22,155 nt of DNA. Origin: a virus. The DNA lies in the IMG/VR virus record IMGVR_UViG_3300033273_000652, positions 1 to 22,155 of that record, one strand, 5' to 3'. Below, in pieces: positions 3,111 through 22,155 of the stretch (positions are counted from its first letter, which is position 1; each line of letters opens with the position of its first letter). Made by a program: the position numbers and the translations under genes. The notes under the pieces were generated by a model that made no database searches, was not told the origin of the DNA, and saw only the letters and a program-made list of their open reading frames with translations.

Positions 3111-3369
3111 TGGAACGCCCCTCCGGGAAACCTAAACCGCATTGTGCCGCAACAAATTCCCAGTGGATGCAGTGCTGGCATCTGGGCTTGTTGTTTGTGA
3201 TGGCCCGAGCGTCGGCGTAAAGCTGTTCAGCCTCAATCACCGCTTGCTCAAGCTCGGTACAGCTGAGGGGTAAATCCAGCTTTCCCGTATGACTCTTAAT
3301 GCGGACACGCCAGCCCTTAGGTCCCTCGTACAGAACCATCCTGCCGGCGTGATACCGCAGCGAAGCCAC
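3061..3369 (-). CDS. small protein with C-terminal four-cysteine PEG box
   Basis: 102 residues from GTG 3369, which shares one base with the TAG stop of the dNMP kinase gene. The N-terminal half is a beta/alpha domain (GWRVRIKSHTGKLDL, then helix EQAVIEAEQLYADAR). The C-terminal part holds a probable zinc box: C64-x2-C67-x2-W70, C77-x-LGFPEG, then FAKSC95. The same box appears in two other proteins of this operon (4480-4758 and 4646-5089). A structural zinc site is likely; function, perhaps protein or nucleic acid binding, is unknown. Confidence 0.65.
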   Translation of the reverse strand: MASLRYHAGRMVLYEGPKGWRVRIKSHTGKLDLPLSCTELEQAVIEAEQLYADARAITNNKPRCQHCIHWEFVAAQCGLGFPEGRSSGGVFAKSCSAFWANH

Positions 3370-3911
3370 TAAGCCTTAGCCATTAGCCGCAGCTTAGTTG
3401 TCAAGTCTTCAACTGCACCGTCATTAAATACAGCGCAATCAAATCTATCGAAATCGTTCAATCCGCCCTCACTGGAGTGCTCAAACGACCTGGGAATACC
3501 CGGTCTTTCGACATACCAGAGCGCACCACCCAGATTCTTAATGAGTCGAGCCTCATTTTTGAAGCGGCAGTCGTCAACAACTACTTTGTCGTAGTGCTTG
3601 ATCCGCTCGGACCAGCAACGCAACCAAATATCGGGGTGGATGCATGACCGGCCCCATTCCGTTCCAAGTGTCCGAAGCATGTGCCGAACACTGACCTCAG
3701 TCGATGGAACGACAACCTGCTTGTGCTTGTAGACGAGATCCTCAGCTCCGGCCTGGTCGTATCCCAGGGCTTTGAGCATCGGAATCAGCATCTCCTTGAG
3801 GGTCTGGGCGAACGGCACGATCGTGTAACCGCGCTCGTCCTGGAGCCACTTAGCAACAGTGGATTTGCCCGAACCCGCAGCCGGGCTGTAGAGGCCGATC
3901 AGTTTCTTCAC
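3369..3911 (-). CDS. deoxynucleoside monophosphate kinase
   Basis: 180 residues from GTG 3911, whose GTGA overlaps the stop of the upstream gene; a longer ATG frame from 3986 is less likely. The enzyme phosphorylates dNMPs to dNDPs. The P-loop is at residues 6-18 (GLYSPAAGSGKST), followed by a helix (VAKWLQDE), a WGR motif (EWGRSCIHPDIWLRCW) and a Walker B-like strand (VVVDDCRFKNEARLI). This layout matches the T4 gp1-type phage dNMP kinases, and the nearby ThyX and dCTP deaminase make a nucleotide role consistent. Another P-loop NMP kinase specificity cannot be excluded by eye. Confidence 0.65.
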   Translation of the reverse strand: MKKLIGLYSPAAGSGKSTVAKWLQDERGYTIVPFAQTLKEMLIPMLKALGYDQAGAEDLVYKHKQVVVPSTEVSVRHMLRTLGTEWGRSCIHPDIWLRCWSERIKHYDKVVVDDCRFKNEARLIKNLGGALWYVERPGIPRSFEHSSEGGLNDFDRFDCAVFNDGAVEDLTTKLRLMAKA

Positions 3912-4192
3912 GATTGGCCCGCCATCTGAGCTGAGATGAAGGAAGCCCGCATAATCTGCGCGGTGTCCTCCTTGAATCGATCCCAAAGGTCGGTGTACGT
4001 GCCACGTTCACCAGGTTCGGCGCTGTCGCGCTCGTACAGCTCGTACAGGTAGTCAAGAAAGGCGGCTTTGCCGTTCTCGACTTGCCATGGCTTCAGCTCG
4101 CTCAAGAGCTGTTGCGCGTCCAGTGACTGGGTCACCCCAATAAACGATTCGCCCATCAAAGAACCAAGGCCGGTAGAAGGTTTCGATGCCAT
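3908..4192 (-). CDS. small helical protein overlapping its upstream neighbour
   Basis: 94 residues from ATG 4192, or 82 from ATG 4156. The conserved-looking part is helical (LDAQQLLSELKPWQVENGKA, AFLDYLYELY, TDLWDRFKEDTAQIMRASFI). It overlaps the 4053-4250 frame by 104-140 bases, depending on the start, and ends in a GTGA overlap with the dNMP kinase gene. Both overlapping frames read like real proteins. The coupling to the kinase start supports this one. No ribosome binding site is evident at either ATG, so the start is unsure. Function unknown. Confidence 0.55.
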   Translation of the reverse strand: MASKPSTGLGSLMGESFIGVTQSLDAQQLLSELKPWQVENGKAAFLDYLYELYERDSAEPGERGTYTDLWDRFKEDTAQIMRASFISAQMAGQS

Positions 4193-4480: not shown

Positions 4481-4758
4481 CAAACTGCCTCCGTGACCAT
4501 CGCCGGGCAGTCGACCGCAAATCTCGTACCACCCTCAGGCAACCCTAGGCAGCACCGGTGACTCCAATGACCGCAGCCTGCGCATGGTCCGCCGCCTTCA
4601 AGTGGCTCGTACTTACGCATACGAACCTCGGCGCGCATCTCCTCCCTACCGGCGGGAGTTTTGCGATAACACTCCGCGCAAATCACGGGATTGCGAGTGT
4701 CCCTTCCGCAGGACGGGCAAACTCTGGTGTTGATTCGGCTCGTAGAGCGAGCACTCAC
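4480..4758 (-). CDS. double zinc-ribbon protein with PEG cysteine box
   Basis: 92 residues from GTG 4758; ATG 4806 in the same frame is the alternative. An N-terminal zinc-ribbon pattern is visible (C14-x2-C17, then C27-x2-C30: CPSCGRDTRNPVICAEC), followed by a basic helix (REEMRAEVRMRKYE). A C-terminal box follows: C59-x2-C62-x-HW, C69/C70-LGLPEGG, then FAVDC84. This box is shared with two neighbours, suggesting duplication within the operon. The gene begins inside the 3' end of the preceding one in another frame. A nucleic acid or protein-binding role is likely for a ribbon of this kind, but unproven. Confidence 0.6.
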   Translation of the reverse strand: MSARSTSRINTRVCPSCGRDTRNPVICAECYRKTPAGREEMRAEVRMRKYEPLEGGGPCAGCGHWSHRCCLGLPEGGTRFAVDCPAMVTEAV

Positions 4759-5089
4759 TGGCGAACGATCCACCAGATTCAGGGAACTGCATCGAACAGG
4801 AGCCATCGATCCAATAAGAACAAGAGGTGCAGGACTTGCGGGACTCGCTAATAGGCGGATTAAGGACCTGCGAGATCGCGGTATTAAGGCGGAGTAGAAG
4901 GTCGTACTCCTTCATCTGTGTAGCTGTTATCTCGTACTTTGTCTCGGCGTAGTTGCAGTTGGAGCAACGGCGCCTGAATCTGAGTGTCGGATCTTGGCTA
5001 CGCCGACGCGATTCCGTCACGTAGAACTTTTTCTGATTGCACTTAGGGCAATGGCGCAGACTTTCGTCAGGTCTACCGCGTCCGTTCAT
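4646..5089 (-). CDS. NrdR-like zinc ribbon protein with PE cysteine box
   Basis: 147 residues. ATG 5089 overlaps the ThyX stop (ATGA). Residues 14-45 form a zinc ribbon (C14-x2-C17 ... C42-x2-C45) with a basic stretch between them (ESRRR, RFRRRC), resembling the NrdR N-terminal ribbon in layout; the NrdR ATP-cone is absent. After a helical linker comes the operon's shared box: C87-x2-C90-x2-W, C98, FPESGG, FASEC113. The last 28 residues after SLYEPN look unlike coding sequence and overlap the next gene, so the ancestral protein may have ended earlier. A regulator or DNA-binding role is inference. Confidence 0.6.
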   Translation of the reverse strand: MNGRGRPDESLRHCPKCNQKKFYVTESRRRSQDPTLRFRRRCSNCNYAETKYEITATQMKEYDLLLRLNTAISQVLNPPISESRKSCTSCSYWIDGSCSMQFPESGGSFASECSLYEPNQHQSLPVLRKGHSQSRDLRGVLSQNSRR

Positions 5090-5808
5090 GGCGCCAACCT
5101 CGCCTTACCCAGCCGCTTATCGACGTAATAACCAAGGATCTGCGGTGCCCAGTCCTCAAGGTGAGGAAGCATCAAATCGCAGAGCGTCTGAATCTCAGGC
5201 TGTGCATCAGCCTTGGCACGAAGATCGAGGAAGTGGAGCGCGCTTCGCAGGTTGAAGCTGACCACAAAGTTTTGCCGGAAGTCAAAGGGCAGCATTCCGC
5301 GAATGTGCTCCTCGGCGAATCCAGCCTTAAGACGAATGGCGTACTGACGAATCGACTCAGTGGCCGCGACCTTGTCCCGGTTGAGGTCGTCCACTGAGTA
5401 CCGGTACTTTTTGCCTTCGCGATCCCTGTAATAACCAGGTTCGCGGAAGTAGATCACCGATTCCACCGGAGCAAGGCGGTCCAGGACCTTAAGCATCCGC
5501 TGGCCCGTGTACCGCATCGACTGCACGTCGAAGCTGACGCCGACGCGGTGCGTCCGAGCCTGCTGCATCACGGAATGCGGGAACCCAGCGACACCAAAGG
5601 TGATGGCGGGATGCTCAAGCGGGCCATAGTGACCACGCTCCCCAACCAGAAGGCGCTTGACGCAGATCTGGCCAGCCCGAGTTTCTGCCGGTGGCTCGTC
5701 GTCCCCGACATAACCCTCGTAGTAGTCCTGGTGCATCGCAGCCCAAACCAGGGTCTGCGGGTTCGGGGTCCTAGATAGAACCTCAACCCTCAAATAAGAG
5801 TCCGACAT
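5086..5808 (-). CDS. thyX: FAD-dependent thymidylate synthase ThyX
   Basis: 240 residues from ATG 5808, which shares a base with the upstream TGA (TGATG) and has GAGG upstream. ThyX makes dTMP from dUMP using methylenetetrahydrofolate, NADPH and FAD, and works as a homotetramer. The diagnostic region is clear: GHYGPLEHPAITF (59-71), then RTHRVGVSFDVQSMRY (85-100), a variant of the RHR-x7-S signature with Arg85-Thr-His87-Arg88 and Ser97. The C-terminal FDFRQNFVVSFNLRSALHFL and DLR-KADAQPEIQ complete the fold. Length fits the family. It leads the operon that carries dNMP kinase. Confidence 0.93.
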   Translation of the reverse strand: MSDSYLRVEVLSRTPNPQTLVWAAMHQDYYEGYVGDDEPPAETRAGQICVKRLLVGERGHYGPLEHPAITFGVAGFPHSVMQQARTHRVGVSFDVQSMRYTGQRMLKVLDRLAPVESVIYFREPGYYRDREGKKYRYSVDDLNRDKVAATESIRQYAIRLKAGFAEEHIRGMLPFDFRQNFVVSFNLRSALHFLDLRAKADAQPEIQTLCDLMLPHLEDWAPQILGYYVDKRLGKARLAP

Positions 5809-6038
5809 CAAACAACCTCGACGTTGGACATGGGCCAGCGCGCCTTCGCGTACTTCAACGCACGAGTCTTGGACTCAGCCTGCAGCTCAACAAACATGGG
5901 ACTCGCACCAACTTGGGAAACGCGAACCCTGAACTTCCTGGTTTTTGCCCCTGGAACGGCTCTGCTTATGCCGTCACCATGCTGGGATTTAGCTTCCGCA
6001 TCATCATCCCAAGTAGTGTTCAATGCAAAATTCGACAC
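5808..6038 (-). CDS. small basic beta protein of unknown function
   Basis: 76 residues from GTG 6038; TTG 6059 would add seven hydrophobic residues. The conserved-looking part is the C-terminal half (KTRKFRVRVSQVG, SPMFVELQAESKTRALKYAK), a beta-beta-alpha unit ending in a ...NVEVV strand, the pattern of small modification-or-binding domains often seen in cyanophages. The N-terminal 30 residues are acidic and probably flexible. It is coupled to ThyX by TGATG and is the first gene of the operon. Function unknown. Confidence 0.55.
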   Translation of the reverse strand: MSNFALNTTWDDDAEAKSQHGDGISRAVPGAKTRKFRVRVSQVGASPMFVELQAESKTRALKYAKARWPMSNVEVV

Positions 6039-8420: not shown

Positions 8421-10298
8421 TCACTTTGCCTCGGACCAGGTCTTGCCCCAGGCAGCCTCGGCCAGCGCAGGGATTTCGCCTAACCACTTGGACTCGGCGT
8501 ACTCCATTTCTTTGCTGAGCAGCGCAGCCCACTGCTCCTCAAGGCCCTCACGCACCAGCAGCACAACTTCGTCATGGACGACAGCAGCTAAGCGGACTTG
8601 CGACTCTCCGGTTTTACGGAGGTGCTGCCACAAACGATGGAGCGCGTACTTGAGGATCGCCGCACCAGCTCCCTGAATTGGGGTATTACAGCGTGTCGTT
8701 AGCCGGTTCATGTCCCCAAGCAAGAATCGGCGCATATCCGTTTTAGGTATGCGAATTTCAGCAAATCTTTCGTGCTCGGTCATGTTGGCGAGGTTTGCGT
8801 TTTTCCTCTGCCACTCATGAATCCCTTGGTACGTGCTGTGGAAGGTGTCGCGAATCTGCTCCGCTTCTTCCACCGTCATGGTGATCCCCATCGCACCTGC
8901 GTAATCGCGTAGTCCCTTGGCACCTGACCCATAGAGCAGACCAAAGTTTGCGGATTTAGCTACCTGGCGCCTGGCCTTCATCTCGGCTTCGTCGTCAGTC
9001 GGCTCTGGGTAAATGGCGTTCGCAGTAATGGTGTGGAGGTCTTCATTCCTTTGGAACGCGCTGATCATGAGAGCGTCCTGGGATTCAGCGGCGGCGAGAC
9101 GGAGCTCCATCTGGCCGAAGTCAGCCACCACAAAGCTCCAGCCCTCAGGCGCTTCGGCGGCCTGACGGAAACCCTTATCCCGCGGGACCTGCTGCAAATT
9201 CGGCTCCCGGCAAGACATCCTTCCGGTGTCAGCCCCGAGCTGCAGATAGCTGGCACGGATGAAGCCATCGTCGTCCTGGTGGTCAAGCAGCGCCACAACC
9301 ATCTGCCGACGCTTCTCAGCTTTCTTCCAGGCCAGGTAGAGCTGAATGACCTTGTGGTCCGCCGCATAGGAGCGAAGAGCTTGCCGGGATGCGCTGGGCT
9401 TACCCGTCTTGTCCTTGGGCTCCTCACCAAGCAAGACGCCCAGCTTGTAGACCAGCTGCTTTGGTGAGTTGAGATTGAAGCCGGCCAGCTTCTTGGTGCC
9501 GAGCCTGACGTGGCCCGTCGCCTTGGCACGCAGGTTGAACGTGCCATCCTCATCGCGCGGCAGCTTCTCTTCTTCGGGCATGGCAGCATCGAGCTCTTGG
9601 ACGAACTCGGCACCAAGGCGCTCGATCTCGCCCTCGTAGTGCTGTTGCAGCTGCTCTAACTTGGCCCGGTTGAAGGGCAAGCCAGTTCGCTGCATGTGGG
9701 CAATCGCCTCCAACGCCCGACATTCCAGACCCCAGGCCATGTACAGGCGCCGGGCCATCAGAAGATCGGTGACCTTCTGAGCCAGGTGCAGCAGGATGCG
9801 GACGTCGTTAGCGGCGTAGGTCTTCTGGGACTCGGTGAGATCCGGTTTTGACCAGTCAGAAGCCTGCTCCTCCTTGCTGACCTCAATGTTCAGGTAGCGC
9901 TTGCAGGCTGGAGCCAGACCATTGCGCACGTTGGGGATGCCGTTCTCTAGCAACCGTGACGCAAGCATTGTGCAAAACACGACTCCCTCGGGATAGATGT
10001 CGTGCTGCTGAAGCCAGCCCAGATCAAAGGTGGCGTTGTGGGCGTACCAGTGGCGCTTCTCCTTGGCCTGGAAGAACTCCTGGATCTGAGTCCAGTCCTC
10101 AGGCTCCAAATCCCACATGTCAATAACGACAACGGGCTTAGCTGGCGCGGCCAGCTGCAACAGGCGCAAGCCGCCGGTCTTGGGTTTGAGAGCCGTTGTC
10201 TCTGTGTCGAAGGCGATGACCTCGGAGTCCTCAAGCCAGTGAAGGAACTCGATGCCATGGAGCGTCTCAGGCGACGCGGACCAGTCAGGTGCAGACAT
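8421..10298 (-). CDS. polA: family A DNA polymerase with 3'-5' exonuclease
   Basis: 625 residues, the phage replicative polymerase. The 3'-5' exonuclease motifs are intact: Exo I FDTETT (Asp31, Glu33), Exo II NATFDLGWL (Asp92), Exo III YAANDVRIL (Tyr161, Asp165). The polymerase motifs follow: A at VADFGQMELRLAA (Asp393; Gly instead of the common Ser), B at RRQVAKSANFGLLYGSG (Lys448, Phe452, Tyr456), C at VVHDEVV (Asp576). Phe452 is at the position of E. coli Pol I Phe762. There is no 5' nuclease domain, as in T7-like and other phage polymerases. A TACAAT element at 10317-10332 probably starts its transcript. Two copies of the GGACTYG-N7-CCGGTTTT motif lie in the gene. Confidence 0.97.
   Translation of the reverse strand: MSAPDWSASPETLHGIEFLHWLEDSEVIAFDTETTALKPKTGGLRLLQLAAPAKPVVVIDMWDLEPEDWTQIQEFFQAKEKRHWYAHNATFDLGWLQQHDIYPEGVVFCTMLASRLLENGIPNVRNGLAPACKRYLNIEVSKEEQASDWSKPDLTESQKTYAANDVRILLHLAQKVTDLLMARRLYMAWGLECRALEAIAHMQRTGLPFNRAKLEQLQQHYEGEIERLGAEFVQELDAAMPEEEKLPRDEDGTFNLRAKATGHVRLGTKKLAGFNLNSPKQLVYKLGVLLGEEPKDKTGKPSASRQALRSYAADHKVIQLYLAWKKAEKRRQMVVALLDHQDDDGFIRASYLQLGADTGRMSCREPNLQQVPRDKGFRQAAEAPEGWSFVVADFGQMELRLAAAESQDALMISAFQRNEDLHTITANAIYPEPTDDEAEMKARRQVAKSANFGLLYGSGAKGLRDYAGAMGITMTVEEAEQIRDTFHSTYQGIHEWQRKNANLANMTEHERFAEIRIPKTDMRRFLLGDMNRLTTRCNTPIQGAGAAILKYALHRLWQHLRKTGESQVRLAAVVHDEVVLLVREGLEEQWAALLSKEMEYAESKWLGEIPALAEAAWGKTWSEAK
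8594..8616 (+). repeat. GGACTYG-N7-CCGGTTTTA motif copy in polA
   Basis: GGACTTG, seven bases, CCGGTTTTA. Same spacing and orientation as the copies at 9827, 15506, 22002, 22042 and 22099. In polA this copy sits in a different codon phase from the copy at 9827, so protein homology does not explain it. Confidence 0.5.
9827..9849 (+). repeat. GGGACTCG-N7-CCGGTTTT motif copy in polA
   Basis: GGGACTCG, seven bases, CCGGTTTT: identical halves to the two right-end copies at 22042 and 22099 with the same spacing. It lies antisense to polA codons for KPDLTES. Confidence 0.55.
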
Positions 10299-10316
10299 AA
10301 GCGATAAGGCTGTGGT

Positions 10317-10332
10317 GATTGTACTACAAATT
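10317..10332 (-). promoter_or_regulatory. promoter-like AATTTGTAGTACAATC element before polA
   Basis: The 16 bases AATTTGTAGTACAATC on the minus strand are identical to those before DNA ligase (16370-16385). TACAAT (10318-10323) would be the -10, placing transcription start about 12 bases before the polA ATG. It overlaps the stop of the 55-residue gene. The repeat in two places supports a real promoter; no clear -35 is seen. Confidence 0.5.
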
Positions 10333-10498
10333 AAGGCAACAGCTGGCCGCGGTGTCCACGAGTCTTGGTTGTGGAGCCGGGCGGCAGGGCATCCCTAAGC
10401 CAACCCGAGGGCGGTTCAGGGATGGCACGTTCCAGGTCGGCGAAGAAGCGCGCAAGGCGCTCCTCCTCCGTCGGTGGGGTGAACTTCTTGCGTTCCAT
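10331..10498 (-). CDS. 55-residue Pro/Arg-rich protein
   Basis: ATG 10498 overlaps the primase-helicase TGA (TGATG). The product (MERKKFTPPTEEERLARFFA, DLERAIPEPPSGWL) has an amphipathic helix and a basic Gly-rich tail (TTKTRGHRGQLLP). It sits between the primase-helicase and the polymerase, coupled to the former, and the polymerase promoter element covers its stop. The position suggests a replication accessory peptide, which is inference. Confidence 0.6.
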   Translation of the reverse strand: MERKKFTPPTEEERLARFFADLERAIPEPPSGWLRDALPPGSTTKTRGHRGQLLP

Positions 10499-12999
10499 CA
10501 GTCCCACTCCGCGAGCACCTGGTCAATGCAGTCCCGCTTCTGCTGGTCGCTGAAGGTCGGTTCGTCCTCGCGCGCGCCTGCGCGTATAGAGCGTTCCAAT
10601 GTCCCCTTTCCATCAGATCCCTGTTCCTGCAAGGGATTTAAAAAGGGACACTCTGAATCTGAAGACAAGTTGTCCCTTTTTGTCCCCTCCGTTTCAGCAG
10701 GGCTATCACCGGCTTGAACGTCACCAGGAGTAAAAGGGACAACTTGGCCTGTCCCCTTTTGTGTCCCTTTTTCAGATCCCGTACCACCACTGGGATCTGC
10801 CCCTAAAGGGACATTTTCTACACACTCTCCCCGCAGGCGCGAGGAAAGAACCGCCCTATACAAAAACTGAGGCTTCTTACCTTGAGTTTCTTGAGTCGCA
10901 CCCACGATCTCCACCAGGCCCTTCTTCTTCCAGCGTTGGAGCGCCTTTTTGACGGCTTCGTTGTTGCCGCCGCAGGTGGGGTCTGCTTGGAGCTGCTTCA
11001 GGGTTTTGGGCTCCCTAGCCAGGCGGAGGCGCTGAAGCACCCTGTCGCTGATTCCAGAGGGCGCTGCGTTGGTTGGATCGACCTCGGGGGTCCAGTCCTG
11101 AATCGAGTAGCTCAGGTCGGCCTGCTGCTTCATCAGCAGCTGCGTGCCGCCGCGACCACTACGGGACTTCTCGAAGGTCAGGATCCGCGCAGCTTGGCCC
11201 GTCTGCTCAACCTGCTTTTCGGTCGGTTTTTTCAGCGAGATCACCTCGTCGACGGCATCGCGAATCGCCGATGTGCCTCTGAAGTTGCCGTTTTTGTTGG
11301 CGTGGTGGATGACGATGATCGTCGTGGCCGGGAAGGCGTCCCCGTTGTTGCGGGTCAGCCAGTACAGCGGGGTGGCGAAGTCGCTCTTGTTCTCGTCGAA
11401 GGCCTTACCGCCGCTGCAGCCAATCAACGAGTCGATGATCACGAGCTTGGGCTGGTACTTCTCGATCTGGCGGATGAAGAATGCGTAACGCTGGATCTGG
11501 AAGTCGCTGCGGATCGTCACGTTGGTTCCCCGCGGGAAATCAACCTCCTCCAACTGCTCCTGGACCTGGATGAGCGGCTGGTCGCCATTAAGGATCAGAA
11601 CGCCACCCTTCTCGACCGGCACCTCTTGGCCACGGATCTTGAATGGTGCGCCCGTAGCGATGTGCTTAGCCAGGGTCCAGGCGGCCATCGACTTGCCGTC
11701 ACCGCCCGAGCCGTACATCAGCACCACCGATGGCGTGGCCAGCAGATCGGGGATCAGGTAGTCCCGCTTGAAGTCGGTGTCGAGGAGGCTGTCGATCGTG
11801 ATGGCATCGGTCTTCTTCTCGTAAGCGAGTTGGTCGACCAGGATCCGCTCGATCTTTTCGGCATCGCGATGGCCCGACTCAACGGCCAGCCGATGCATCT
11901 CGTAGTTCAGCTCGGCGGGGTTGTCGAGCTCGATGATTGCCTTGGCCCGTTCAAGGAGCTCCTCGAAGGGCATGGCAACCTGCTGGATGCGCTGAACCTG
12001 CGCCTTCTCGATCTGGTCAAGCGTCTTCCGGCTGGAGTCTTGAAATCGCTCCCTGTTGGGGTCGTAGCCGTCTGCAAGGCGGATCAAGCTGCCCAGACCG
12101 GCGTTACCCGGCCGTCCAGCCTTCTCAAGGATCAGAGGCCATTTATCGGCGCATGGGTTGCCGTGCTTCCAGTCCTCCTCGTAGTCGGAGTCCTCGGCAG
12201 ACCACGCAGACCACAGAGTCAGGCCAAGGTCGTTCGGCAGGTCCTCGGCGATCATTGCGCCGACAATCCACCAGTCGTCTTCGTTCCCCCGGCCGCATTG
12301 AGGCAGGACGGTCAGGCAGTCACGGACAATCTCAGCAATCTCATCCTGGGTTCTGCCGGAAAAGTCGAGGCCTTTTCGGTTCTTGACAAGGCCGCTAGTC
12401 TGGGACGGCGTGTCCTGTACGTAGCGAGCACGCATCTCAGCCAAGAGCCACTCAGGAGCCTGAGGGATCTGGTTGAGATCACCAGAAGCAAGCTTGTAAG
12501 TACCTGCAGGTGCTTTGCCGTCGGAGGAACCGGGGTAAGTACCAGCGATTACGCCTTGCTTTCCCCAAAGCACCTCATAGCCCTCACCCGTATGGGAGAG
12601 GCCAAAACCCTTGACCTGAGCTCTCTGATCCTCAGGAACACGGAAGACATATTTGGCAGCATTCTTCTTCGTACTAATAATCTTGGGTGCGTCTTGCAGT
12701 GAGTCGCCCCACTTTTTCGACAGAGTTGCGAGGTTTGCGTCTACATCAAGAATGACGAGACCTTGAGAGCGGATTCCGGTAAATAATCCAACCGCAACGA
12801 ACTCTTCTGGGACTCGCTCTAAGAAAAGTGCGACATCACCCGGCGACATGTGCCGCCTAAAGGAATCCTCGTGAGGGTTCTTGCCCTTACTGACGATCCG
12901 GTTCTTTCCGTAGACAACGCCCTTCGCATAAATAGGCGTATAGGCGGGACCAACAGGGAGCGAATTAACGAACCCAATGAGTTTTTTGTTGGGACTCAT
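10498..12999 (-). CDS. primase-polymerase / RepA-like helicase fusion
   Basis: 833 residues. Residues about 15-190 are a primase-polymerase domain: VGLFTGIRSQGLVILDVDAN with the catalytic Asp85-x-Asp87. Residues about 219-312 fit a primase C-terminal helical domain (DDWWIVGAMIAEDLPNDLGL, LWSAWSAED, LGSLIRLADGY). Residues about 400-640 are an AAA/RepA-type helicase: Walker A GSGGDGKS (430-437), Walker B LVIIDSL (519-525), then IIVIHHANKN and a RGTSAIRD arginine-finger region. Residues 650-718 look like a winged helix (DRVLQRLRL, then LKQLQADP). Residues 720-833 are a disordered Gly/Pro/Glu tail coded by a repeat-dense stretch. It would unwind the fork and make primers. Such fusions are known in phages and plasmids. 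Confidence 0.9.
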   Translation of the reverse strand: MSPNKKLIGFVNSLPVGPAYTPIYAKGVVYGKNRIVSKGKNPHEDSFRRHMSPGDVALFLERVPEEFVAVGLFTGIRSQGLVILDVDANLATLSKKWGDSLQDAPKIISTKKNAAKYVFRVPEDQRAQVKGFGLSHTGEGYEVLWGKQGVIAGTYPGSSDGKAPAGTYKLASGDLNQIPQAPEWLLAEMRARYVQDTPSQTSGLVKNRKGLDFSGRTQDEIAEIVRDCLTVLPQCGRGNEDDWWIVGAMIAEDLPNDLGLTLWSAWSAEDSDYEEDWKHGNPCADKWPLILEKAGRPGNAGLGSLIRLADGYDPNRERFQDSSRKTLDQIEKAQVQRIQQVAMPFEELLERAKAIIELDNPAELNYEMHRLAVESGHRDAEKIERILVDQLAYEKKTDAITIDSLLDTDFKRDYLIPDLLATPSVVLMYGSGGDGKSMAAWTLAKHIATGAPFKIRGQEVPVEKGGVLILNGDQPLIQVQEQLEEVDFPRGTNVTIRSDFQIQRYAFFIRQIEKYQPKLVIIDSLIGCSGGKAFDENKSDFATPLYWLTRNNGDAFPATTIIVIHHANKNGNFRGTSAIRDAVDEVISLKKPTEKQVEQTGQAARILTFEKSRSGRGGTQLLMKQQADLSYSIQDWTPEVDPTNAAPSGISDRVLQRLRLAREPKTLKQLQADPTCGGNNEAVKKALQRWKKKGLVEIVGATQETQGKKPQFLYRAVLSSRLRGECVENVPLGADPSGGTGSEKGTQKGTGQVVPFTPGDVQAGDSPAETEGTKRDNLSSDSECPFLNPLQEQGSDGKGTLERSIRAGAREDEPTFSDQQKRDCIDQVLAEWD
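10600..10813. repeat. iteron-like GGGACA repeat cluster, candidate origin
   Basis: About eight copies of TGTCCC(C)TTTT or its complement AAAAGGGACA: plus-reading at 10600, 10671, 10681 (partial), 10750 and 10762; minus-reading at 10640, 10732 and 10805. 10641-10650 and 10671-10680 form a perfect 10-bp inverted pair. A second repeat, CAGATCCC, occurs at 10614-10621 and in an inverted pair at 10773-10780 / 10792-10799. All lie in the tail of the primase-helicase gene and are read in varying codon phases (KGT, VPFT, KRDN, CPFL), so the DNA rather than the protein is conserved. Confidence 0.55.
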
Positions 13000-13037
13000 G
13001 CGATACTCAGTAAGTGAAACGGCATACGCCCTGTTTG

Positions 13038-13068
13038 GTGTAAAAACCAGGCGGGGCGTTTTTCACAC
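13038..13068. promoter_or_regulatory. inverted repeat in divergent intergenic region
   Basis: GTGTAAAAAC (13038-13047) and GTTTTTCACAC (13058-13068) form a stem with one bulged base. It lies in the 161-base gap between the divergent primase-helicase (12999) and SSB-like (13161) genes, with a TTGACA at 13084 nearby. An operator or attenuator is likely. I see no convincing -10 for either direction. Confidence 0.35.
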
Positions 13069-13160
13069 TACGCATCTCGTCAAGGGGTTGACACACCACA
13101 TAAAGTGTTTGGGCAACCAGGCAACGCCACCTACAGCGGCATCGCCACCACGCAACCCCC

Positions 13161-13736
13161 ATGGCACTCCTTTCCAAATCAGCCAAAGCTGCAGTCAGCG
13201 GCGGCACTGGCGGTTACCTCAACCCCAGCAAGATCGTCTCCGGCACGAGCGTTCGTTTCGCTTTGTTAAGCGAAGAGCCGGTCGAGGGCTACGAGCTGTG
13301 GGCTGACGGTCCTGAGAAGGCCAAGTCCTTCCGCTGGGATCACGAGCCCACCCCCGCAGAGATTGACGCAACTCTCGGCGAATACACCCGCCGGATGAAT
13401 CGCGAGGGCACCGGCTTTGAGCCGATGAAGTTCTTCATCGCTCTGCCCGTGTACAACTACGAGACCGAGCGCGTCGAAGTGATGCAGCTCAACCAGAAGG
13501 GCCTGATCCGCGAGCTTGACTCCATCTCCCAGTCCGACGACTGGAACGTGCTGGAGTGCGACTTCACCCTCGGCAAAACCGGCGCCGGCCTTACCACCGA
13601 GTACAAGCTCCTCCCCGCTAACCGCAAGAAGGGCATGGACGAAGTGCTGGCCGACGCATGGGCCGAAACCCAAGCAGCGGGCTTCGACCTGACCCAAGTG
13701 ATCGCCGGCGGCAGCCCCTTCCGCCCCGAAGCTTGA
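13161..13736 (+). CDS. putative single-stranded DNA-binding protein
   Basis: 191 residues, acidic overall. The N-terminus MALLSKSAKAAVSGGTGGYL, the central FFIALPVYNYETERVEVMQL / NQKGLIREL and the C-terminal AGFDLTQVIAGGSPF resemble the phage SSB-like proteins I know from cyanophages: a beta-rich OB-like core flanked by a flexible start. It would coat single-stranded DNA at forks. The gene is divergent from the primase-helicase and ends in a strong terminator pair (13761-13836), which fits high expression. The family is recognised by pattern only. Confidence 0.5.
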   Translation: MALLSKSAKAAVSGGTGGYLNPSKIVSGTSVRFALLSEEPVEGYELWADGPEKAKSFRWDHEPTPAEIDATLGEYTRRMNREGTGFEPMKFFIALPVYNYETERVEVMQLNQKGLIRELDSISQSDDWNVLECDFTLGKTGAGLTTEYKLLPANRKKGMDEVLADAWAETQAAGFDLTQVIAGGSPFRPEA

Positions 13737-13760
13737 CCCCAAGCCCTGGTCCGTATAGGT

Positions 13761-13799
13761 TCCTCCAGCTCCCCTAATTAGGGGTAAGCTCCTGGAGGA
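13761..13799 (+). other. nested hairpin after SSB-like gene
   Basis: TCCTCCAG (13761-13768) pairs with CTGGAGGA (13792-13799), enclosing the palindrome CCCCTAATTAGGGG (13771-13784). It lies between the SSB-like stop and the terminator. It has no T tract of its own, so it may protect the mRNA 3' end rather than stop transcription. Confidence 0.45.
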
Positions 13800-13803
13800 G
13801 AAG

Positions 13804-13836
13804 ACCCCCGACCGCGCCAACCGGTTGGGGGTTTTC
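13804..13836 (+). terminator. intrinsic terminator after SSB-like gene
   Basis: ACCCCCGACC (13804-13813) pairs with GGTTGGGGGT (13823-13832), with one G-T pair, followed by TTTCCC. This is a strong rho-independent terminator, about 70 bases after the SSB-like stop. Confidence 0.75.
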
Positions 13837-13850
13837 CCATAAATGGGCCT

Positions 13851-13890
13851 TGACGGACTCTGACCGGTTCTGACGGGATCTGACCGCTTC
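13851..13890 (+). repeat. four tandem 10-bp repeats before KilA-N gene
   Basis: TGACGGACTC, TGACCGGTTC, TGACGGGATC and TGACCGCTTC follow one another with no gap (consensus TGACSGNNTC), ending 11 bases before the KilA-N ATG. A 10-bp period puts each copy on the same face of the helix, the layout of a multimeric operator or iterons. Confidence 0.65.
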
Positions 13891-13901
13891 ACCTACCTCT
13901 T

Positions 13902-14663
13902 ATGACCAACCTGATCAGCCGCTCTTGGAACGGCACCCCCATCCAACGGCGCACGACCGACGGCTACGTCAGCGCCACGGCCATGTGCAAGGCCAACGGT
14001 AAGCAGTTCAACGACTACTTCCGCACAGACCGTGCAAGCGAGTATTTGGAGGCGCTTTCGGCGGAAACGGGAATCTCCGTTTCCAACTTGTGTCTCACCA
14101 CGAAAGGCGGTGCTCACCAGGGAACCTGGGTCCACCCCCAAGTCTCCGTCGACCTGGCCCGCTGGATCAGCGCACCCTTCGCCGTCTGGATGGACGGCTG
14201 GTTCCTAGAGGAGCTCAGCGGCCGAGTGTCCCAAGTGCGGGAAGTTCAGCCCCAGCTGCCTGACGTCCTCACCACCGTCCAGCGCAGCCTCGATCTACTG
14301 GAACGTCTCGGCGGCGTTGACGATCGCGCCCAGCTTCTGCTGAAGGACATCGTCCTCAATCACGCTGCCCGCACCGCAGGCGGCGACCTTTTGCTCCCCG
14401 GCACCCGAATGCTCGCCTTACAGGAAGCGTTCAGCGAAATCGGTGGCGCGACCCCCCATGAAGCATCCAATCTCGCCACGAAATGGGGCAAGGACGTCAA
14501 GAAGCTGTACAAGGAAGAAAACGGCCGCCCACCAAAAACCCACAAACAGCTCGTCAACGGCCGCAGTTGCGATGTTTGCGACTACGAATTCGACTGGATT
14601 TCTAAACTTAAAAATGATCTAGTCGGGCTTGTACAGCAATTTCGAGCCGAACTCACACGCTAG
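13902..14663 (+). CDS. KilA-N domain protein
   Basis: 253 residues. Residues about 5-105 are a KilA-N DNA-binding domain: DGYVSATAMCKANGKQFNDY, YFRTDRASEYLEAL, then TTKGGAHQGTWVHPQVSVDL, ARWISAPFAVWMDGWFLEEL. Phage KilA-N proteins act as antirepressors or DNA-binding regulators; their molecular role is often unknown. The C-terminal part is a second helical domain with two cysteines (CDVCDYEFDW). Four 10-bp repeats directly upstream are a candidate binding site for it or for a partner. It is followed by the exonuclease with 27 bases between. Confidence 0.85.
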   Translation: MTNLISRSWNGTPIQRRTTDGYVSATAMCKANGKQFNDYFRTDRASEYLEALSAETGISVSNLCLTTKGGAHQGTWVHPQVSVDLARWISAPFAVWMDGWFLEELSGRVSQVREVQPQLPDVLTTVQRSLDLLERLGGVDDRAQLLLKDIVLNHAARTAGGDLLLPGTRMLALQEAFSEIGGATPHEASNLATKWGKDVKKLYKEENGRPPKTHKQLVNGRSCDVCDYEFDWISKLKNDLVGLVQQFRAELTR

Positions 14664-14690
14664 GCTGTCTAAATAATTACAGCGAGACTT

Positions 14691-15527
14691 ATGGCGGCGT
14701 TTGAATTCAATCCAAAACTCAACACCGCTTTCCAAAACAAGCTGACGCGCGACGACGAAACAGATCCCAACGGCCGCATCTACCGCAACGCCGACGGCGA
14801 AATTTTCCACAGCGTGACCCGTATCCTCGGGGCTACATCCAAGTCGAAGGACGCCCTTGAGGCCTGGAAAAAGCGCCTCGGCGAAGAGCTTGCAGCAGTG
14901 GAACGTGACACTGCAGCCGAGCGCGGCACCCGCACCCACAACTCCGCGGAATACGTCCTCCGCACCGCTAAGCGGATGGCAGAACAAACAAGCGAAAAGA
15001 AGCGCACGACCTACATCAACCGCGAAGGATTGCACAGCGTCCCCGCCCAACTCACCAAGTGGGCCATCAAGCAAGCACTACCGTCCGCACCCAAGGTCGG
15101 CATCAGCGCTAGCGGTTACCGCCGCTCCCTCCTGCAGTGGATCGAAGAGAACGTCACAGCCATCCACGGCATCGAGTTTTCTATCCACCACCCCGCAGGT
15201 TTTGCTGGCACGGCTGACTTTCTGGGCTACGTCAAGGGCAATGGCCCCTTCATCTGCGACTGGAAGACCTCAGCCAATAAGCGCTCGGAGGAGATGCTCA
15301 CCGACTACACGGACCAGCTCGGCGCTTATTCCTTAGGCCTAAAACATGTTGCCAACGTCCAAGCCAAAGGCGCCGTAATCGTCGTGGCGCGTCGAGCAGG
15401 CCCCGCCCAAGTAAGGGAACTGAGCGAACTGGAATTACGCGGCGCCGAAGTCCGTTACCTGGAACGCTGCCACGAGTACTTCGACCAACTCCACCAGGCC
15501 CTCAAGGACTCGCAGACATCCGGTTAA
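14691..15527 (+). CDS. PD-(D/E)XK exonuclease, Cas4/RecB-like
   Basis: 278 residues. The nuclease core is visible: RGTRTHNSAEYVL (79-90, conserved His83), Glu162 in IEFSIHHPAGFAGTADFLGY with Asp176, then CDWKTS (Asp190-x-Lys192) and the QLGAYS Q-x3-Y motif (209-213). This set is typical of phage RecB-type exonucleases, which chew double-stranded DNA in recombination or host DNA degradation and need two metal ions. The start lies after a TAATTA-rich spacer. The last codons hold a GGACTCG-N7-CCGGTTA motif copy. Confidence 0.85.
   Translation: MAAFEFNPKLNTAFQNKLTRDDETDPNGRIYRNADGEIFHSVTRILGATSKSKDALEAWKKRLGEELAAVERDTAAERGTRTHNSAEYVLRTAKRMAEQTSEKKRTTYINREGLHSVPAQLTKWAIKQALPSAPKVGISASGYRRSLLQWIEENVTAIHGIEFSIHHPAGFAGTADFLGYVKGNGPFICDWKTSANKRSEEMLTDYTDQLGAYSLGLKHVANVQAKGAVIVVARRAGPAQVRELSELELRGAEVRYLERCHEYFDQLHQALKDSQTSG
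15506..15526 (+). repeat. GGACTCG-N7-CCGGTTA motif copy at exonuclease end
   Basis: GGACTCG, CAGACAT, CCGGTTA: same spacing and orientation as the right-end copies. It covers the last codons (DSQTSG) and part of the stop. Confidence 0.45.
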
Positions 15528-15545
15528 TCCGACCTACTTAGGCTA

Positions 15546-15575
15546 GGGACTCGGACAGACACGGTTTAGGGGGAT
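15546..15575 (+). repeat. degenerate GGGACTCG motif copy before tail-like gene
   Basis: GGGACTCG, seven bases, ACGGTTTAGGGG: one change in the second half and the same spacing, 40 bases after the copy at 15506. It ends just before the GGGGGA ribosome binding site of the 15582 gene. Confidence 0.4.
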
Positions 15576-15581
15576 GCCTGG

Positions 15582-16298
15582 ATGCAGAGCATCAAATGGG
15601 ACGTTGAGGATCTAATCGGCAAGCTCAACATCGTCCAGAAGACCCAGATCCCTTATGCGGGTGCGCAGGCGATGAAGCGCTTCGCATATCTCTTCAGCAG
15701 GGAGCAAGTACCCAAGGAGATGCAGGATGTGTTCAGAGCACCTGTGCCTCTAACACTGAAGTCCGTTAAGTACAAGGCCGACGGGTTAACAGCGACCTTC
15801 ACTGTCAAACAAAAAGTCCCCAAGGGCAACGCCCCCGGTAAGTACCTCTACCCGGTTTCAAGCGAAGACGCATCTGGCCGCAAACCTATATATGACACCC
15901 GCTTCACCAACGGCCTACGCAAGAAAGGCATCGTCGGTGATGGCTACTGGCCCGTGCCGTTTCTTAGTGGTCGCGGTGTCAGCATTACAAACGGCAGGAT
16001 GCGCCCTGGCCAATACGGAGACGTTCTGCGTGGCCTCGATCGCAAAGAACCCGGCAAGGGAGGTTACCGATACATCTCCATCCCTGACAACCGCTCAAGG
16101 AGACCTGCCAGTGGCGGTCTGTCGGACGGCATCTATCGCATCAAGGGCCGCAACGACGTCCAGATGCTGTTTACCTATGCCCGCACACAGCCAACGGTTC
16201 CGACAATCTTTGACCTGCGCCAGTACGCACTCGATTACGGCAACGAGGTGCTGCCCAGCCTGCTGAGTAAAGCTTTGGAACGAGCCATGCGCAGTTAG
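15582..16298 (+). CDS. tail-protein-like phage structural family protein
   Basis: 238 residues from ATG 15582, with GGGGGA eight bases upstream. The order of features matches a phage morphogenesis family I know from lambda-like genomes (minor tail Z-like): a helical start (QIPYAGAQAMKRFAYLFSRE), then PLTLKSVKYKADGLTATFTV, a YLYPV / RKKGIVGDGYWPVPF block, GRMRPGQYGDVLRGL, and a C-terminal LFTYARTQPTVPT helix. Its place among replication genes is odd. It has its own terminator (16332-16358). The assignment is by pattern, so confidence is moderate. Confidence 0.45.
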   Translation: MQSIKWDVEDLIGKLNIVQKTQIPYAGAQAMKRFAYLFSREQVPKEMQDVFRAPVPLTLKSVKYKADGLTATFTVKQKVPKGNAPGKYLYPVSSEDASGRKPIYDTRFTNGLRKKGIVGDGYWPVPFLSGRGVSITNGRMRPGQYGDVLRGLDRKEPGKGGYRYISIPDNRSRRPASGGLSDGIYRIKGRNDVQMLFTYARTQPTVPTIFDLRQYALDYGNEVLPSLLSKALERAMRS

Positions 16299-16385: not shown

Positions 16386-16423
16386 CTGCCGTGCCTGACC
16401 GCACCCCCTTACCTCTTATCTCA

Positions 16424-17173
16424 ATGGCCTCAATCGAAGCCCTGCGCACCCAGATCCGCCGAGCCGACGCTGCTTACCGCAACGGCGAGCCGATCCTGAC
16501 CGACAGCGAGTACGACGGCCTCGAAGCCGAGCTTCGCGCCCTGGCCCCTTACGCCCCTGAGCTCCGCCATCCCGGTGGCGGCACTGCCCTACTCAGCCTC
16601 GACAACTGCGCTCTTGAGGACTGGTACGAGGCCATCACGATCCAACCGGCGGTCGTTGTACAGCCCAAGATCGACGGCATCGCCGTAGCCATCCGCTACA
16701 AGTCCGGCCTGATCACCGACGCCTGGACCCGCAGCGGTAAGTGCATCCTCGACCTAATTAAGCAGGTCAGCGCCATCCCCAACGTGATCAACGAGGGCGG
16801 CGACATCGAGATCCACGGCGAGCTCTATGGCACGGACCCCGGCAAGTCCCAGACCGACGCTGCCCAGGCTGCCCGCGCCAACGCCATCGGCAACCGCAAG
16901 CTGACCTTCGCCGCCTACAAGCTGCACGGCGCAGGTGGCACGGAATCGACCAGCCTCGACCGCATCAGCCGCCTCGGCATCAACGTCGTCGACTCGCTGC
17001 TCTGCACCAAGCCCAAGGAAGTGCTGCAGGTTTACAACGACTGGCTCGACGGCCGCCGCTTCGCCTCTTACCCCTGCGACGGTGTGGTTGCGAAGGTCCA
17101 CGACCACAAGCTGCAAGCCTCCCTCGGCTCCACCAGCCGCGCCCCTTTGTGGGCACTGGCCCTCAAGCGCTAA
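16424..17173 (+). CDS. ligA: minimal NAD-dependent DNA ligase
   Basis: 249 residues from ATG 16424 (GTG 16391 possible). It carries the NAD-binding domain Ia (RADAAYRNGEPILTDSEYDG, 13-32) and the adenylation domain: LLSLDN (57-61), adenylated Lys82 in QPKIDG, TRSG (102-105), IHGELYG (130-136, motif III), CDGVVAKV (218-225, motif IV) and APLWALALK (240-248, motif V). It ends right after motif V, so the OB fold, zinc finger, HhH and BRCT domains of normal LigA are absent. It may be a partial enzyme needing a partner, or a minimal ligase or adenylyltransferase. Its promoter resembles that of polA. Confidence 0.8.
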   Translation: MASIEALRTQIRRADAAYRNGEPILTDSEYDGLEAELRALAPYAPELRHPGGGTALLSLDNCALEDWYEAITIQPAVVVQPKIDGIAVAIRYKSGLITDAWTRSGKCILDLIKQVSAIPNVINEGGDIEIHGELYGTDPGKSQTDAAQAARANAIGNRKLTFAAYKLHGAGGTESTSLDRISRLGINVVDSLLCTKPKEVLQVYNDWLDGRRFASYPCDGVVAKVHDHKLQASLGSTSRAPLWALALKR

Positions 17174-21997: not shown

Positions 21998-22155
21998 TCG
22001 AGGACTCGCGGGCATCCGGTTTATCGCGCACACAGGGGCGCGGGACTCGCAAGGGTCCGGTTTTAGGGCCTCACACACACGCATATGAAAAATGCCGGGG
22101 GACTCGCAAGGGTCCGGTTTTAGGCCCTTTTTCACACACACCCACACATACATAC
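21998..22155. other. non-coding, repeat-rich right end
   Basis: Holds the three motif copies, CACACACAC tracts and CACACATACATAC at the edge. No gene is supported on either strand. Confidence 0.6.
22002..22124 (+). repeat. tandem GGACTCG-N7-CCGGTTTTA repeats at right end
   Basis: Three copies: 22002-22023 (GGACTCG, CGGGCAT, CCGGTTTA), 22042-22066 and 22099-22124 (both GGGACTCG, CAAGGGT, CCGGTTTTAGG). The latter two are 57 bases apart. Each copy is followed by a CACACA tract. All have the same orientation; more copies may lie beyond the window. Confidence 0.65.

Follow-up and report, generated by a model that had tools for sequence, protein, structure and literature searches.

The bipartite motif that recurs through this viral DNA is confirmed as a real, conserved and strand-exclusive signal, stronger than when first noted. 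In the window (the whole stretch of DNA that was analysed, which is the entire virus record of 22,155 bases), the pattern GGACTYG-N7-CCGGTTTTA was found 9 times at up to 3 mismatches, each time on the plus strand, against 0.25 matches expected and a maximum of 2 in shuffled windows; an exact 16-base version without the tail gave 6 forward and 0 reverse matches. Comparison of relatives refined the consensus to GGACYYGC-N7-CGGTTTTA (23 bp, ~26 bits in total). We propose, at a probability of about 0.37, that a phage-borne protein which processes DNA strand-specifically recognises the motif, and most likely nicks one strand there. No function has been assigned to programmed nicks in phage genomes in the roughly fifty years since they became known (PMC11780129). 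A new family of sites that is defined by sequence, cleanly strand-exclusive, gained and lost between relatives and perhaps linked to the cos cleavage site would make nick function testable by comparison, by asking which gene tracks the sites and what changes without them.

Judged from sequence, the window virus is an uncultured lambda-like phage and one member of a cos phage family; no near relative was found for it among named phages. Its host is probably cyanobacterial, a reading drawn from weak links: a small protein similar to Synechococcus phage proteins, a tail protein similar to those of Prochlorococcus phages, among others, and a TerL similar to that of Synechococcus phage S-LBS1, among others. 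The left part of the window holds genes for a lysin, a dCTP deaminase and an HNH protein. Leftward genes include those for ThyX (5086-5811) and a primase/AAA protein (10498-12999), and a KilA-N regulator (13902-14663) is read rightward.

Copies, strand and relatives

The copies are distributed along most of the window. A tandem pair with a period of 23 (4841..4863 and 4864..4886, both +) lies inside a leftward Cys-rich ORF (4646-5089, minus strand), where the initial annotation had suspected one half-degenerate copy at 4840-4865. Two copies (8594..8616 and 9828..9850, both +) fall within polA (8421-10298, minus strand), and are thus antisense to it, a correction to the earlier description; that they stand in different codon phases, 1234 bp apart, was borne out. 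One copy crosses the end of a PD-(D/E)XK exonuclease gene (14691-15527, +) at 15506..15528 (+), with 3 mismatches that all fall within the final three bases, and another (15547..15569, +) is immediately 5' of a gpZ-like gene (15582-16298, +). The right-end cluster comprises three copies (22002..22024, 22043..22065 and 22100..22122, all +), the second and third matching the consensus exactly. A weak, possibly decayed copy (3486..3508, +; matrix score 15.7) in the leftward DNMK gene (3369-3986) is better preserved in the related genomes G001 and G002. Compared with the initial annotation, the positions 8594 and 15506 were right and 9827 and 15546 should each be one higher; the copy at 15547, credited with one mismatch, has 3 against the full pattern, and the range of 8594-15575 was too narrow, as the motif also occurs outside it.

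Strand and spacing are equally strict beyond the window. Across 8 contigs searched on both strands, GGACYYG-N8-CGGTT occurred 37 times forward and 0 times in reverse, and the same half-sites at every other gap from 0 to 24 gave 2 matches in all; the search over both strands and other spacings that had been suggested as a possible refutation therefore left the claims of a fixed gap beyond chance and a single direction standing. A weight matrix (score >12) returned 77 forward and 0 reverse sites over 14 related sequences, with G008, G010 and G021-G024 outside its training set; since the matrix was trained on forward-strand sites, the unbiased evidence is that of the fixed-pattern counts, and many of the counted copies are orthologous, so that neither 37:0 nor 77:0 is a tally of independent events. 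The left half alone was strand-biased in the window lineage (17:0 in G001, 14:3 in the window) and showed no comparable bias in 560 kb of terminase-side contigs (24:15), and altered control words were mostly balanced between strands. The shuffles, fixed-pattern strand counts and control words together rule out chance or composition as the source of the motif.

Codon constraint was likewise rejected as the cause of the polA copies: in the motif core, wobble positions were invariant at 6/7 places across five genomes (as read from the codon table), versus 22% of codons of invariant residues being identical elsewhere. GGACYYGC and CGGTTTTA, the two halves, are not inverted repeats of each other, nor clearly direct ones, which favours an asymmetric two-domain reader over a dimer, and the earlier suggestion that the halves bind a dimeric protein is unsupported as worded.

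In four relatives whose PolA is 78-88% identical (L007, L008, L009 and L034), the motif occurs at orthologous places in the same orientation, so that the proposed check on close relatives did not refute it; it was absent in PolA relatives at 57-60% identity. Pattern scans added G003, G006, G007, G021 and G022 as carriers. The tandem pair recurs at the orthologous place in G001, G002, G007, L007 and L009, and sites directly before the gpZ-like gene recur in G001, G002, G003, G006 and G007. In carriers the sites sit in the early/replication arm, and contigs from the terminase side, which carry structural genes, had essentially no copies. Every member for which the region is available has 1-4 copies at a single locus close to the right end; in the window lineage additional copies spread leftward. 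The motif does not belong to a polA/primase module, as G003, G006, G007 and G022 lack the module yet keep the motif. A check of host genomes, made on a bacterial collection, gave two low-scoring matches to the tandem pattern (Dietzia and an Acidobacteria MAG) that look like unrelated repeats. A single motif-like match, acggtgtagtGGACTCGCTGGGAGACGGTTTTA, is identical in seven contigs (L174, L175, L176, L178, L179, L180 and L185) that seem to belong to another group of viruses, and was treated as chance.

Genome ends

Several members of the family share a defined right end. G001, G002, G003, G006 and G007 all end at one homologous base, ...ACYTGCGAGGTRTTTCRARC, and L071 and L072 continue through that end into a small terminase-like gene and TerL, which carries GpA ATPase and GpA nuclease domains of the lambda type. 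About 30 contigs found via TerL begin exactly at AGGTnnTTC... and have a 13-nt end in common with the right ends, and a cosQ-like GGGTCC precedes the cut, whose position was inferred from contig ends; G008 (58,260 bases) spans from end to end. The shared ends, TerL and GGGTCC together indicate cos phages in lambda order, with the window in lambda orientation. The last large gene ahead of the right cos end is conserved and belongs to the GP88 family (PF17338; 16698-17885 of L156, which is G008, and orthologs).

Left of the cut, the cosN arm in many members reads GGACTCGCG^AGG or GGACCCGCG^AGG, which is the motif's left half, oriented alike, so that many members have the form GGACYYGCG^AGG beside the terminase cut; in G008, out of 76498 positions, this arm matches the left half best. 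The resemblance was spotted post hoc, and the cos sites, being homologous, amount to roughly one observation. The arm is decayed in the window lineage (AGACCTGCG, GCACTTGCG, AAACCTGCG), and the apparent cos end of G022 is without a left-half match. Position 9 of the motif would flank the cut and varies between A, G and T, and the right half occurs at cos with a spacing of +11 bp in the G003/L071 type only and not in the G008 type. The components of a lambda-like cos site (cosQ, two cosN half-sites and TerS sites) were found at the genome ends and not at the dispersed sites.

Contig ends also lie near motif sites, with the window's right end 33 bp past the last copy and the left end of L071 3 bp before one. 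This could reflect nicks; two cases are too few.

Proposed programmed nicking and its alternatives

The anatomy of the motif suggests an asymmetric reader acting directionally on DNA, and among known systems it works most like nick signals, to judge by analogy. A phage-borne protein would recognise GGACYYGC-N7-CGGTTTTA in this family of lambda-like cos phages and nick the DNA there in a single strand, which would be the same strand throughout the genome, comparable to the localized single-strand interruptions of T5, phiKMV-like and tf/LUZ24-like phages. The conserved right-end cluster may be the main loading or processing site, and in one lineage additional copies would have spread across the early/replication arm. 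We infer the protein that reads the motif, the nicking, the strand cut and the timing. It is possible, though short of even odds, that a strand-exclusive 23-bp site partly shared with the cos cleavage arm serves a directional early-arm process undescribed for cos phages, which would be either programmed nicking or polar replication control.

Nicking is favoured because the known cases with the same one-strand signature are phage nick sites. In phage tf, the 14 copies of the nick motif are confined to the top strand; they occur in both transcription units, with two inside leftward genes (PMC3517423), and our recount gave 14:0; Rembedalsseter has 13 nick sites (WACTRTGAC) on one strand, with coverage drops (PMC11780129). 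As in tf and LUZ24-like phages (TACT/RTGMC, ~10-14 dispersed copies), the copies here are confined to one strand, occur in and between genes independently of gene direction, concentrate in the early/replication half and keep both position and sequence among relatives. They differ in that the motif is longer, bipartite, different in sequence, arranged in tandem clusters and known here from sequence alone, and that its phage is cos-ended and lambda-like whereas the tf/LUZ24-like phages are podoviruses with terminal repeats. The phiKMV nick consensus is itself bipartite, CGAC-N5-CCTACTCCGG (quoted in PMC3517423), and phiKMV-like sites (CGAC-N5-CCTA/CTCCGG) share with the motif a fixed gap, a single strand and GAC...CGG ~14-15 bp apart, though the sequences are otherwise unrelated; the motif matches none of the known consensuses TACTRTGMC, CGACN5CCTACTCCGG and RGCGCRGG. 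phiKMV-like phages carry a DNA ligase, and nearly all members here have an NAD-dependent ligase-like gene near the sites (16391-17173, rightward, in the window). In phiKMV (L191), three exact copies of the nick consensus (6314, 13986 and 24128) lie inside annotated phage-specific promoters and overlap them, whereas here no RNA polymerase gene was found.

The identity of the cosN arm with the left half in many members was also counted for nicking, and the resemblance to the lambda cosQ-cosN-cosB arrangement extends to GGGTCC, the 13-nt shared end and the lambda-type TerL, but the dispersed copies lack cosQ and a second half-site and have the extra right half. It counts against nicking that the arm match is not universal (G022) and that position 9 varies. 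Known nick sites are moreover not described in tandem clusters, while 2-4 copies here stand 23-57 bp apart; the cluster beside an AT-rich stretch also suits a replication origin.

That alternative, the first of the rivals, which are followed in turn by transcription control and packaging, is doubtful and takes the right-end cluster as an origin of initiator-binding direct repeats and the dispersed copies as extra initiator sites or polar, Ter-like sites of fork arrest that would give forks their direction. As in an iteron-type origin, the right-end cluster, and that locus only, has direct copies (2-4) in noncoding DNA beside an AT-rich segment: a stretch of 54-82% AT comes after it in all genomes tested, with about 2.5-4.7 kb from there to the cos end in relatives. 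In G008, a near-perfect 26-bp x10 tandem array, TTGGTGAAGCTCACTACCCCGTGGGG (L156 13955-14215), lies ~370 bp right of the cluster; a similar array was also seen in G010. The location of the sites in the replication arm agrees with a replication role, and polar action could explain the fixed orientation. Plain iterons, however, would not lead one to expect copies as far as 18 kb away to keep a strict orientation, and GC skew showed no clear switch at the cluster. Ter sites in known systems mostly point in both directions around a terminus, unlike the motif. Replication genes vary between members, with the polA/primase module present in part of them only, and no common initiator and no Tus-like or O-like protein was recognised. 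If the sites mark an origin or fork polarity, they would offer a readable replication signal for a widespread uncultured phage group.

It is unlikely that a phage transcription regulator uses the copies as operators or activator sites, whether in the manner of stoperators or to drive late transcription rightward across cos. Cluster A mycobacteriophages have a comparable number of asymmetric stoperators through the genome, about 10 in the early arm here, late genes run rightward as the motif does, and a site precedes the gpZ-like gene in several genomes. Stoperators of that cluster are 13 bp long and their orientation follows transcription (PMC9283540), yet the motif behaves otherwise: among 52 strong sites in six contigs, leftward genes contain 19 and rightward genes 7, and the other 26 are at gene edges or intergenic (a few of the ORFs behind this split are uncertain), so that 19/26 sites wholly inside genes are antisense, and all 52 are on the plus strand. 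Orientation thus follows the genome rather than transcription, and its being fixed to the genome and cos independently of gene direction broadly fits the earlier proposal of a strand-specific signal in packaging, recombination or replication. The dispersed sites also lack promoter-like context, with no AT-rich region downstream and a TATAAT-like box within 60 bp in 2/44. A promoter for a phage single-subunit RNA polymerase was rejected on this ground and on the lack of a PF00940 match, the latter being weak because the positive control found nothing either. No immunity repressor was recognised in the fragment records, the window having the KilA-N regulator, and an integrase was found in G010 and G023 only, though most records are fragments. 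An RNA hairpin or terminator was rejected, as fold energies were near those of shuffles and no Rfam match was found in the window. Stoperators, promoters, terminators and RNA elements thus fit poorly as explanations.

Least probable, and quite improbable, is that the copies are terminase-related packaging signals, with the left arm of cosN in common, read the way DNA is translocated. The orientation common to motif and cos, the left half shared with the arm in most members and the GpA-type ATPase and nuclease domains of TerL speak for it; against it, cos does not have the right half CGGTTTTA at the motif's spacing, the arm is missing in G022, the structural arm has essentially no sites, and the arm match itself is post hoc and counts roughly once.

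Candidate proteins and neighbouring genes

No motif-binding protein was identified among the candidates considered. The small HNH endonuclease gene that adjoins the dCTP deaminase (2588-2953) is present in part of the family only, and was rejected as a general nickase because it is missing in the motif carriers G003 and G022. The gpZ-like protein was set aside as a binder since it looks like a tail protein (phrog_1924 and alignment). In all relatives seen, this tail gene sits inside the replication arm beside the ligase-like gene, apart from other tail genes. A long Arg/Gly/Ala-rich repetitive ORF in G003 (26697-27635 in reverse-complement coordinates) is probably a low-complexity repeat and not a gene. 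The ligase-like product of the window is ~260 aa long and matches the adenylation domain of NAD-dependent ligases alone; most relatives, and Microcystis phages too, have the same short form.
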